64,000 bases of DNA, from contig NZ_MAGO01000003.1 in assembly GCF_001687335.1 (NCBI RefSeq), positions 1 to 64,000 on the forward strand, read 5' to 3'. Position numbers and translations under genes: made by a program. Below, one piece after another: positions 8,125-57,776 of this stretch. Below the pieces are notes generated by a model. That model saw only the letters and a program-made list of their open reading frames with translations. It was not told where the DNA came from and made no database searches. Source of the DNA: Dissulfuribacter thermophilus (lineage in GTDB: Bacteria; Desulfobacterota; Dissulfuribacteria; Dissulfuribacterales; Dissulfuribacteraceae). Within the stretch, counting starts at the first letter, position 1, and each line of letters begins with the position of its first letter.

Positions 8125-8301
8125 CAAATTATGCAGCTCGAAAGCCTTGCAGAATATGCAAGGCTGAGGGTATGCAAAGGACTTAGGTACTTCAAGTCCC
8201 CGACAAAGCAAGGCCATTCAGTAAAGTTGCGAGCCCATTGGGGCTTCAAATCCCTGAAATTTAATCGCCGTATCAAGCAGCACCTTTTGGGTAAAGGGAC
8301 A
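8125..8301 (+). repeat. Partial, decayed copy of the ~255-bp dispersed element (subfamily 2)
   Basis: The left part (AATTATGCAGCTCGAAAGCC, ACTTAGGTACTTCAAG, GGGCTTCAAATCCCTGA) matches the full copy at 25871-26125 read in reverse complement. Homology fades after the CACCTTTTGGGTAAAGG segment and the right terminal repeat is missing. It lies between the convergent ABC ATPase and bamD genes. Confidence 0.7.
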
Positions 8302-14022: not shown

Positions 14023-14289
14023 TTCCACCTAAATCCTGCAATTGTCGAGTTTGCCCAAGATGCAAGGCGGACCGGAAGCAGACGCACTCAGGCACTTCAC
14101 GCCCCTGACAACGCAGAAACCCGGGTAAAATCGCCAATCCCGCAGGGCAGCCAAATGGGGCAAAAACTTGAAGAACTTGCATTTCACTAAAAAAGTGAAT
14201 CTAAGTAAATACTTTTCATAAAGTAACACCTTAATATAATATTGGAAATGCATTTTTGCCCCCTTTTGCCGTGCAGGATTTAGGTTCCA
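14023..14289 (+). mobile_element. Dispersed element copy A with 5-bp target duplication (element 14028-14284)
   Basis: The 257-bp non-coding element is bounded by perfect 13-bp inverted repeats CCTAAATCCTGCA (14028-14040) and its complement (14272-14284). It is flanked by the direct repeat TTCCA at 14023-14027 and 14285-14289, which indicates insertion. The two internal arms are partly decayed here. It separates gyrA and gpsA, ending 21 nt before the gpsA start, so gpsA must be transcribed through or from it. Confidence 0.88.
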
Positions 14290-21881: not shown

Positions 21882-22138
21882 CCTAAATCCTGCAATTGAC
21901 GAGTTTGCCCTTTGATATCGAGGAGCGAGGGGCGAAGACGTACTTAGGTACTTCGAGCCCCGAGCAACAAAGAAGATTGGGCAAAATCGCCAATCCCGAA
22001 GGGCGGCAAAAGGGAGCAAAAAATATGGAATATGGATTCACCCCAAAAGTGAATTTGAGGAAAAACCAAATATTGGCTAATCCCTTATATAATCGTTTAC
22101 AATCCATTTTTGCCCCCTTTTGCCGTGCAGGATTTTGG
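21882..22138 (+). mobile_element. Dispersed element copy B inside the pil operon
   Basis: This 257-bp element has left terminus CCTAAATCCTGCA (21882-21894) and right terminus TGCAGGATTTTGG (22126-22138), with one mismatch. The internal arms and the TTCACCCC...GTGAAT hairpin are retained. Flanking 5-mers (AAGCA and GACGA) do not match, so no target duplication is left. It lies between pilN and pilO, 28 nt after the pilN stop, in an operon that is usually contiguous. Confidence 0.85.
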
Positions 22139-25847: not shown

Positions 25848-25870
25848 ATAACTCCTCATTTTTCCTTTAT

Positions 25871-26125
25871 CCCGGATTATGCACTTCAAATGCCTGAAGA
25901 AAGTAATTTCTATGAATTATTGCATAGTTAGCATGCATCTTTTCCCGTTGTGCCTTCACCCAAAAGGTGAAGTTCAATCCGTAATAAATCCTCAGGCATT
26001 TGAAGCCGCAAGGGGCTCGCAATCTTACCGAGGTCTCTTTGTTGTCGGGCACTTGAAGTACCAAAGTACGTCTGCGTGCCCTCCGCCTCGCATCTTCGGC
26101 AAACTTGCGAGCTGCATAATCCGGG
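25871..26125 (-). mobile_element. Dispersed element copy E, subfamily 2, between lepA and lepB
   Basis: This 255-bp non-coding element has perfect 13-bp inverted repeats CCCGGATTATGCA (25871-25883) and its complement (26113-26125). It aligns with the other subfamily only when reverse-complemented. Internal arms pair perfectly or nearly so: 25884-25897 with 25992-26005 (14/14), and 26015-26032 with 26094-26112. A CTTCACC/GGTGAAG hairpin caps one arm (25954-25972). Flanks TTTAT and TTGAT match at 4 of 5 bases. Confidence 0.85.
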
Positions 26126-26162
26126 TTGATTTCCATCTAAAAGAGAGATAGACTCCCGTAAA

Positions 26163-34770: not shown

Positions 34771-35034
34771 AACTACCTAAATCCTGCAATTGGCGAGTTT
34801 GCCCAAGATACGAGGAGCGAGGGGCGAAGACGTACTTAGGTACTTCGAGCCCCGAGCGACAAAGTAGATTGGGCAAAATCGCCAATCCCAAAGGGCGGCA
34901 AAAGGGAGCAAAAACACAAAATATAGATTCACCCAAAAAGTGAATTTCGTGAAAAGCCAGATGTTAGCTAATACTCTATAAAATCGTAAATAATTCATTT
35001 TTGCCCCCTTTTGCCGTGCAGGATTTAGGAACTA
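34771..35034 (+). mobile_element. Dispersed element copy C with 5-bp target duplication (element 34776-35029)
   Basis: This is the best-preserved copy, 254 bp. Terminal repeats 34776-34788 and 35017-35029 are perfect (13 bp). Flanks AACTA at 34771-34775 and 35030-35034 are a perfect 5-bp duplication. Arm 1 pairs 34789-34806 with 34869-34886 (17 of 18). Arm 2 pairs 34897-34914 with 34998-35015 (17 of 18) and is capped by an ATTCAC/GTGAAT hairpin. It lies between glnS and gltX and overlaps the glnS 3' end. Confidence 0.92.
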
Positions 35035-43623: not shown

Positions 43624-43721
43624 TGGCGGAAGCGCATGGGAATCGAACCCACCCACGAGGCTCCTCACCCCGTGCACCGGATTTGAAGTCCGGGAGGGCC
43701 ACCAGCGCCCTTTCCGCTTCC
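43624..43721 (-). tRNA. selC: Selenocysteine tRNA (anticodon TCA)
   Basis: This 98-nt tRNA-like gene on the minus strand has loop CTTCAAA (anticodon TCA reading UGA), a long variable arm and the extended structure of tRNA-Sec. Acceptor arms GGAAGCG and CGCTTCC pair, and GCCA is encoded at the 3' end. It implies that the organism recodes UGA with SelA, SelB and SelD, which are not in this window. A run of eight T follows the CCA. Confidence 0.95.
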
Positions 43722-46208: not shown

Positions 46209-46580
46209 CTAATCATCGTCGTCCCAGTCCTCTGGAAGGTCTTGAGACTTTTGGGTCTGTGGCTTGGGCTCTGTCTTTATTTCTGCCTGTTTTTTCGCAT
46301 TATTAAGGCTTTTTTCACGTTCTTCCTTACTCCACTGTTCTGTCTTTTTCTTCAGCCGATTACTCAATAAAAGCAGGTTTTTTATACCTCCTGCCAATCC
46401 AAATAGAAAAAAGATTATAGTAAACCATGGATGGGTTCTTCCCTCAAAGACGTCCGTATCCAGCCAGTAACCGAACCAGACCCCGGCAAAGGTTGAAAAG
46501 ACCATGGCAGCACCCATGGTGGAAGCATGGGCTAGAATACGAAAGATCTCATTTAGGTATTTCTTAGTCTCAGGTCTCAT
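46209..46580 (-). CDS. atpZ: AtpZ/AtpI-type ATP synthase accessory protein, copy 1
   Basis: This 123-residue protein has two hydrophobic helices (GAAMVFSTFAGVWFGYWLD and PWFTIIFFLFGLAGGI), matching the F0F1-ATPase AtpZ/gene-1 family that assists Fo assembly or magnesium/calcium handling. The polar C-terminal tail of about 45 residues ends in DLPEDWDDDD. It lies downstream of atpE copy 1 beyond a terminator. A second copy at 48904-49164 has lost this tail. Confidence 0.87.
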   Translation of the reverse strand: MRPETKKYLNEIFRILAHASTMGAAMVFSTFAGVWFGYWLDTDVFEGRTHPWFTIIFFLFGLAGGIKNLLLLSNRLKKKTEQWSKEEREKSLNNAKKQAEIKTEPKPQTQKSQDLPEDWDDDD

Positions 46581-46666
46581 AAATCAGCATGAAGGGAACC
46601 CCGGTCCCGATCCTCGAGTGTTTACTACATCTCTGTCGGCTAGGGCCCCTCTCAAAAAAACAAAAA

Positions 46667-46691
46667 AGCGGTGAAAGTTACTTTCACCGCT
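46667..46691 (-). terminator. Intrinsic terminator after atpE copy 1
   Basis: AGCGGTGAAAG (46667-46677) pairs perfectly with 46681-46691 across a 3-nt loop. On the minus strand it is followed by TTTTTTGTTTTTTT. It sits between atpE and atpZ copy 1 and so may limit atpZ expression. Confidence 0.85.
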
Positions 46692-46750
46692 ATACTTCAT
46701 TGGGGTCCCCTCTGGGAATTCTGTCTGACCTGTGTCGTAAATCTCTTCCC

Positions 46751-47852
<1,102 letters not shown>

Positions 47853-48903: not shown

Positions 48904-49164
48904 CTATTCCCTGCTCCATTGTTCCAGCTTTCTCTTGTTCCGATCATTCAACAAAAACAGGTTCCTTATACCTCCTGCAAGTCCGAATAGGAAGAAGACT
49001 ATAGTAAACCATGGATGGGTCCTCCCATCAAAGACGTCTCTGTCCAGCCAGTAACCGAACCAGACCCCGGCAAAGGTTGAGAATACCATGGCTACGCCCA
49101 TAGTAGATGCGTGGGATAGGCTACGCAGGATTTCGTTGAGGTGTTTCTTGGTCTCAGGTCTCAT
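48904..49164 (-). CDS. AtpZ-type ATP synthase accessory protein, copy 2 (tail-less)
   Basis: This 86-residue protein is about 80% identical over its length to copy 1 and keeps both membrane helices (GVAMVFSTFAGVWFGYWLD; PWFTIVFFLFGLAGGI). It ends at EQWSRE, where copy 1 continues for about 35 residues. Premature termination followed the duplication. It may still be functional because the membrane core is intact. Confidence 0.83.
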   Translation of the reverse strand: MRPETKKHLNEILRSLSHASTMGVAMVFSTFAGVWFGYWLDRDVFDGRTHPWFTIVFFLFGLAGGIRNLFLLNDRNKRKLEQWSRE

Positions 49165-49290
49165 AATTCAACATGATGGGGCCCCAGTCCTTGTCCTGAG
49201 GAGGTGTTTTTACTGCTCAGTGGGCTGGAGCCATTTCCCTGAATCAAAAAATTCGGTAGATCTGCCTACCATTGCCGTAAGTCTCGTCCC

Positions 49291-49653
<363 letters not shown>

Positions 49654-52775: not shown

Positions 52776-53028
52776 CCTAAATTATGCAATTGGCGATTTT
52801 GCCCAAGATGTGAGGCGCGAGGAGTGAAGGCATACTTAGGTATTCCGAACCCCGAGCAACAAAGTAGATTGGGTAAAAGCGCCAATCCCGAAGGGCGCCA
52901 AAAGGGGACAAAAAATAGAGATTGGGATTCACCGAAAAAGTGAATTTGGCGATGTGGTTGATATTGGCTGACAAGCTATAAAATCTTGAAAAATCATTTT
53001 TGTCCTCTTTTGCCGTGCAGGATTTAGG
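52776..53028 (+). mobile_element. Dispersed element copy D
   Basis: This 253-bp copy has left terminus CCTAAATTATGCA (two changes from the other copies) at 52776-52788 and intact right terminus at 53016-53028. Internal arms and the TTCACC/GTGAAT hairpin are present. No flanking duplication (GCTAA and GGAAA). It lies between divergent genes and touches the ribosome-binding site of the plus-strand gene. Confidence 0.85.
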
Positions 53029-57283: not shown

Positions 57284-57595
57284 CCCGGGTGTCACCTCCT
57301 AATGATTTCAGGATGGCCACACCCCATACCCACACAGGGCTTAACACTGAGCTCCAGAACGGACCAGGTGGAAATAAAAGTGGCAAATTTTATTTGAAGG
57401 AAAACAATTTAGGTTTGTCTAAATCTTACATCCCACATTGTCTTTTTGAGGTCTGATATATTCAACTACTCCATTTGCCAAAATTCATTTAATGAAAAAC
57501 ACAAAACAAAGTCATATATGGCAACTGGCTAAAATCCTTTTATTTCCAACCCAGTACCGCAATATATATGAACCCAGATGGGGTTATAGCCAAAA

Positions 57596-57776
57596 TACCC
57601 CCGCTTGTGCCGTGTCTACAGGGTTCATTGAACCTGACCTAGTCAGGTGGGCGTCTCATCCGCAAGGCGTCAGACAGGGATGTTTTCCCCGTCATCGGCT
57701 CGCGAAGCGGAGACCCCCTTGTACGGGGTGTTGGCTCAACGAACTTCCTGTTTGATCACGGTCACAGCAGGGGAAG
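57596..57776 (-). ncRNA. ssrS: 6S RNA
   Basis: On the minus strand this ~180-nt sequence folds into a long rod. The closing stem pairs CCCCTGCTGTGACCGTG (57757-57773) with CACGGCACAAGCGGGG (57599 to about 57614). An interior region holds GTTCGTTGAGCC opposite GGTTCAATGAACC, and an apical stem-rich part follows. The 6S RNA binds the sigma70 RNA-polymerase holoenzyme. Its place directly downstream of zapA is the classic ssrS location. Confidence 0.82.

Follow-up and report, generated by a model that had tools for sequence, protein, structure and literature searches.

The window analysed here comprises the first 64,000 nucleotides of contig NZ_MAGO01000003.1 of Dissulfuribacter thermophilus, and at positions 25871-26125, flanked by lepA and lepB (the signal peptidase gene), it carries a 255-bp non-coding miniature inverted-repeat transposable element (MITE), hereafter copy E. 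Its core strand, the one reading GATGCRAGGCG, is the minus strand of the window, and its annotation draws on own-genome copies, a consensus fold, a single fold and a match of the RNA model R1 at 26015-26112 on the minus strand. An original prediction, made from the letters of the sequence, had proposed that two subfamilies, E and C, share a three-way junction although their pairing arms differ, and that selection acts on the structure instead of the sequence. The features of copy E are as follows:

25871-26125, minus strand: whole element, copy E
25866-25870, no strand assigned: left target duplication TTTAT, whose right partner TTGAT at 26126-26130 is imperfect
25871-25883, no strand assigned: terminal inverted repeat CCCGGATTATGCA, one side of closing stem P1; the same ends occur on IS1380-family relics in relatives
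26113-26125, no strand assigned: terminal inverted repeat TGCATAATCCGGG, other side of closing stem P1
26105-26112, minus strand: 5' side of arm 1 (P2), GCTCGCAA
26082-26096, minus strand: conserved internal-loop strand AAGATGCGAGGCGGA, 5' side of the core, kept across phyla while the flanking stems change
26047-26081, minus strand: P3 hairpin GGGCAC/GTGCCC with apical GTAC/GTAC
26032-26046, minus strand: conserved internal-loop strand GACAACAAAGAGACC, 3' side of the core (GACAACGCAGCAGAT in many relatives)
26015-26022, minus strand: 3' side of arm 1 (P2), TTGCGAGC
26006-26015, minus strand: mini-hairpin CCCCTTGCGG between the long arms, forming the third arm of the junction (C copies have CCCGAAGGG)
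25992-26005, minus strand: 5' side of arm 2 (P4), CTTCAAATGCCTGA
25954-25972, minus strand: capping hairpin CTTCACC-TTTTG-GGTGAAG in arm 2
25884-25897, minus strand: 3' side of arm 2 (P4), TCAGGCATTTGAAG

With 255 bp the element lies below the 500 bp expected of a MITE; it starts with CCCGGATTATGCA and finishes with TGCATAATCCGGG, and 13-bp terminal repeats are found in most full copies. Target duplications around most of these copies are exact, AT-rich and 5 bp long (TTTAT, ATTAT, ATAAT, AACTA and others), those at copy E being imperfect, and sites resembling the terminal repeats number 186, against 4 for a reversed control pattern. The own-genome search, which scored a limited number of candidates, returned 44 stretches matching E and 45 matching a C copy, and 45 full-length copies (21 E and 24 C) were extracted and oriented. 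Neither a transposase gene nor a conserved open reading frame was found in the element, where stop codons occur at about the shuffled frequency. The subfamily E consensus is stop-free across the whole element in one frame per strand (P=0.005 by shuffling; window positions 25879-26151 on the plus strand, and E copies), and roughly one in two E and C copies has at least one fully open frame. A coding element was rejected, as the open frames of E are not common to the consensus sequences of C or of the relatives G011 and G017.

The consensus fold, obtained from an alignment of 67 full elements of the own genome and its relatives, comprises, in addition to a closing stem built from the terminal repeats, two long arms (arm 1, made up of P2 and its continuation, and arm 2, P4) and a mini-hairpin. 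At the tip of arm 1 stands P3 with its apical GTAC/GTAC, seen in single folds and upheld by the pair count. The terminal stem and the two long arms of the original prediction were thus recovered, but the junction has three arms, the mini-hairpin having been missed. The arms do differ in sequence between the subfamilies, and all the arm pairs quoted were present when counted over 80 copies: arm 1 reads GCTCGCAA/TTGCGAGC in E and ATTGGCGA/TCGCCAAT in C, with a third version, GCAGCCAA/TTGGCTGC, in relative G019. The perfect arm 2 attributed to E was located (CTTCAAATGCCTGA/TCAGGCATTTGAAG, at 25992-26005 and 25884-25897), as was the kept capping hairpin TTCACC/GGTGAA, within 25954-25972, and the alignment of E and C over the whole element is good when E is taken on the minus strand, and only then. 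In single folds both strands of E were far more stable than their shuffles (z of -8.7 and -8.2), and so was a C copy (z of -10.7). Tandem G.A pairs are present, but on inspection the bulge lies on the wrong side for a kink-turn, which is not claimed. Many C copies (e.g., L041, L043 and L049) carry TATAAT on the core strand near the 3' end of arm 2, a sequence that may constitute an outward promoter.

In the 67-element alignment, 28 of the 43 consensus pairs changed on both sides with pairing kept in at least one sequence, and the covariation of the core domain was 0.301, compared with 0.173 when shuffled and at most 0.078 when slid. Significance was assessed against an R-scape-like null that takes the tree into account, in which the Fitch changes of each column were redistributed over the branches of a FastTree tree and a G statistic with average product correction was computed. 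For E, C and their relatives, 6 of 45 pairs reached E<0.05. Since few independent arm replacements are represented, C versus E alone being essentially one evolutionary contrast, the two subfamilies by themselves provide covariation evidence that is suggestive rather than conclusive; moreover, covariation in the closing stem was discounted because a transposase needs matching ends. On their own, E and C would not have proved selection on the structure, and strong covariation needs the cross-phylum set.

The core, consisting of GATGCRAGGCG, a hairpin and ACAACGCAGCAGAT, sits inside a freely varying stem. R1, a covariance model of the core arm, detected the domain in 43 of the 297 genomes of the phylum that were sampled; among the carriers the element ends differ (CCTAAACGTTGCA, CCCGGATAATTCA and a long GTGTCRACC type). 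GTDB genomes were also searched with a pattern in which 25 bases were defined and one gap was variable; by simple arithmetic it would give well below one chance match in 257 Gb. Among the matches listed, with phylum names taken from record titles, the core occurs in Desulfobacterota, Nitrospirota, Acidobacteriota, Pseudomonadota, Bacillota, Bacteroidota, Actinomycetota and Myxococcota, the named carriers including Geothermobacter, Pseudomonas, Comamonas, Herbaspirillum, Guyparkeria, Streptomyces, Lachnospiraceae, other Clostridia, Selenomonadales and Myxococcales. The loops are common to these matches partly through the construction of the pattern; the stem sequence is wholly replaced between them. 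The outer stem, left free in the pattern, still pairs, with 82% of its first 12 positions forming Watson-Crick or wobble pairs against about 45-50% when slid (35 non-redundant stems). In the cross-phylum alignment of the core arm (A3, 34 sequences), covariation was 0.541 versus 0.147 for shuffled sequences, and 13 of 25 pairs were significant under the tree-aware null, most outer-stem pairs with E<1e-3. The covariation analysis suggested alongside the original prediction, once run on this larger alignment, did not refute it, and its central statement, that selection acts on structure and not on sequence, holds.

Core copies per genome were counted with a second model that scored at most 150 candidates in each, so that the numbers are lower bounds: at least 146 in a Selenomonadales genome, 146 in Geothermobacter, 116 in one Acidobacteriota genome, 91 in one Nitrospirota genome and 60 in Guyparkeria. 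The Acidobacteriota element measures 238 bp, with ends GGGTTCGCGCAA and 3-bp TTA/TAA duplications, and that of Guyparkeria 268 bp, with ends GGGAARSTCTGCACGAA; for both, the predicted fold again has the closing stem, the core arm, the mini-hairpin and the second arm, in unrelated sequence. In one Guyparkeria copy (L377) a second core lies in reverse orientation within the second arm, and the second arm apparently holds a reversed second core in L376 (Guyparkeria), L375 (an Acidobacteriota genome), L137 and L140 as well. The ancestral element may have consisted of two core hairpins in inverted arrangement, comparable to the pairs formed by repetitive extragenic palindromes (REPs) and bacterial interspersed mosaic elements (BIMEs). 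No Rfam 15 family covered the element at the gathering threshold or at E<1 in any search, no known ribozyme family in Rfam matches it, and a known RNA family was accordingly rejected as its identity. In the open-licence literature, no description was found of the core sequence, of MITE covariation or of such a three-way junction; subscription journals could hold one.

The two strands of the stem are not equivalent. On the strand reading GATGCRAGGCG, a set of 37 divergent stems with no more than 70% similarity gave 45 G.U against 7 A.C (slid control 168:144); a stricter set of 24 stems (60% or less) gave 26 against 4, and an earlier stem set 58 against 16. A symmetric DNA process predicts equal numbers of G.U and A.C, hence the excess indicates that one strand folds alone. 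The asymmetry shows which strand this is, and it probably acts as RNA, a choice between RNA and extruded DNA that the original prediction had left undecided.

Regarding mobilisation, PF13701 (IS1380 family) relics were found in five core-bearing relatives of those searched, and CCCRRATTATGCAGNWC, the same ends as those of E, bounds IS1380-family relics in G011, G017 and G019; no intact IS1380-family element with the ends of E was found among the relatives searched. Past the terminal repeat the relics show little similarity to the MITE, and they lack the core, which means that the MITE consists of an interior module placed within borrowed ends; the candidate explanation of its interior as a shrunken IS1380 was rejected on the same evidence. 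That copy E was moved in trans by an IS1380-family transposase is strongly supported. As a general mover, the REP-associated tyrosine transposase (RAYT, of the Y1 type) was rejected, since PF01797 was not matched in 7 of 20 core-bearing genomes. Pairs of the same terminal repeats only 61-152 bp apart were also observed in the own genome (e.g., C3:113754-113814, C1:26641-26724 and C2:151738-151806), and these are probably internal-deletion derivatives that have lost the core.

Six further copies lie in the window:

14028-14284, plus strand: subfamily C copy between gpsA-like and gyrA genes, duplication TTCCA/TTCCA
21882-22138, plus strand: subfamily C copy between pilN and pilO
34776-35029, plus strand: subfamily C copy between two class I tRNA synthetase genes, duplication AACTA/AACTA
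52776-53028, plus strand: subfamily C copy
8136-8234, plus strand: degenerate E-type copy (core domain), RNA model R1, 45.6 bits
51554-51650, plus strand: truncated E-type copy

The genes pilN and pilO are normally tightly co-transcribed, so that the copy between them indicates that the element is tolerated inside an operon. Between co-directional genes, the core strand is antisense in 17 of 20 C copies and in 5 of 12 E copies (one of the latter having E ends with C arms), and the ratio of antisense to sense is 42:12 across phyla and 11:0 in Selenomonadales. This bias was not seen in the Geothermobacter, Acidobacteriota and Guyparkeria sets, and as a general rule it was rejected, since it varies by family. 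In several single-core families the 3' end adjoins the stop codon of an antisense gene, an adjacency that may partly reflect target choice. The mechanism proposed below was not built on orientation data. The window also contains a direct duplication unrelated to the element (46323-47027 and 48907-49567, separated by about 2.5 kb, with 81% identity over 279 nt and 96% over 300 nt), together with two ordinary annotations, a selenocysteine tRNA gene (43624-43721, minus strand) and a 6S RNA gene (57594-57776, minus strand).

With the integration of these findings, we consider it probable, with considerable room for doubt, that the element as a whole is a non-autonomous DNA transposon with a selected fold, whose RNA presents its loops to a conserved factor. 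It would be mobilised in trans, an IS1380-family transposase recognising the terminal repeats only, a step with strong support from the shared ends. Its interior constitutes an independent structured module (the core arm with its conserved internal loops, the mini-hairpin and the second arm), closed by whichever terminal repeat the local transposase requires, and the unit of selection, as the covariation shows, is the folded single strand with GATGCRAGGCG...ACAACGCAGCAGAT. The core strand would most likely act as RNA within transcripts reading into the element, where the internal loops may be presented to a cellular factor, widely conserved and governing the fate of the transcript (processing, stability or termination); the action of this factor would make the element tolerable or transmissible. 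A bolder version, to which we assign only a small chance, would see in the core a functional RNA of a new class, perhaps catalytic or needed for mobility, and in the module a part swapped across phyla among DNA transposons with unrelated ends and transposases, i.e., an RNA-assisted or RNA-protected transposon system. Several observations weigh against the main explanation: PF13701 had no match in the own genome, neither a promoter nor a transcript was identified for the element, P3 shows no G.U excess across phyla (11 vs 18), and DNA hairpins too tolerate G.T better than A.C. Likewise, distinct G.U and A.C events within subfamilies are nearly equal (91 vs 79), which is attributed to the drift of dead copies, and the orientation bias is missing in some sets, so that a cost of read-through is not general.

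The functional form could instead be folded single-stranded or cruciform DNA; a recombinase, nuclease or replication factor would then recognise the hairpin, as happens with integron attC sites and the hairpins of REP/RAYT systems. Such a form would not require a promoter, and it agrees with the folding of both strands of E, with the dispersal of copies in many phyla and, G.T being the best-tolerated DNA mismatch, with a G.U asymmetry arising from a single DNA strand; we nevertheless regard it as unlikely, given that E and C match double-strand DDE transposons in their duplications and terminal repeats, that the Y1/RAYT transposase is lacking among the matches in the 7 of 20 genomes mentioned above, and that the same core occurs with differing terminal repeats and duplication lengths. 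Somewhat less probable still is a transcription terminator or stabiliser of mRNA 3' ends placed after genes, like REP/BIME and enterobacterial repetitive intergenic consensus (ERIC) sequences, with no special core chemistry. Copies do lie in short intergenic gaps, several families ending a few bases past a stop codon, and hairpins are stable on both strands, but plain hairpins need no internal-loop sequence conserved across phyla, the mRNA in the orientation-biased sets carries the complement of the G.U-favoured strand, and no T-run was seen beside the hairpins in copies inspected by eye, no scan having been made.

An ordinary MITE that retains its palindromic arms through template switching (quasipalindrome repair) or simple ancestry, without selection on the fold, is strongly disfavoured and, in our judgement, very improbable. 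Neither the covariation across phyla against the tree-aware null nor the non-palindromic loops conserved inside wholly replaced stems accord with it, and the strand-specific G.U excess is unexpected from symmetric DNA repair; on its side stand the proneness of hairpin DNA to template-switching repair, the broken pairs in many copies, and the nearly single contrast, with 6 of 45 pairs, that C versus E affords.

Compared with known systems, the element resembles an IS1380-derived MITE in that its terminal repeat and first bases are identical to those of PF13701 relics and in its 5-bp duplication, the length that ISEcp1 also produces, whereas its interior is no deletion product of an insertion sequence and the transposase was not found in its own genome. 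Integron attC sites likewise conserve structure while stem sequence varies, and recognition as a single strand is conceivable for the element; their core sites, RYYYAAC/GTTRRRY, are cut by IntI, and by inspection no such boxes were visible at the element ends. REP/BIME sequences with their RAYT are also dispersed extragenic palindromes, some in opposite-orientation dimers and often downstream of genes; however, REPs span 20-40 bp with a GTAG or CGTC tag at the foot (PMC3733652), and the element has core arms of 85-110 nt, conserved internal loops, differing termini and no consistent Y1 transposase. The bridge RNA of IS110 is likewise a structured RNA tied to a mobile element, with covariation as evidence, but it is encoded by an autonomous element and guides its recombinase (PMC11208160), whereas the present module travels as a passenger in elements whose ends and target duplications differ, and nothing points to a guide function. 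The bacterial MITEs covered by a review (Correia/NEMIS, ERIC, Nezha, Chunjie and QMITE; PMC10969869) share with the element a length under 500 bp, terminal inverted repeats, AT-rich target duplications, intergenic location, multiple copies and stable predicted RNA folds; the passages of that review that were consulted describe no shared module whose interior fold and internal loops persist across phyla and unrelated terminal repeats, as they do here.

Bacterial MITEs are usually viewed as transposon debris sustained by their ends alone. In the present case a folded module with conserved internal loops and freely varying stems persists in at least 8 phyla and with several unrelated families of terminal repeats, and it is absent from Rfam. 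Many intergenic regions annotated as empty carry this structured RNA candidate, which is open to testing in culturable hosts such as Pseudomonas, Comamonas, Herbaspirillum, Streptomyces and Geothermobacter, and its conservation implies that this very abundant class of repeats has a molecular partner or an activity in common.
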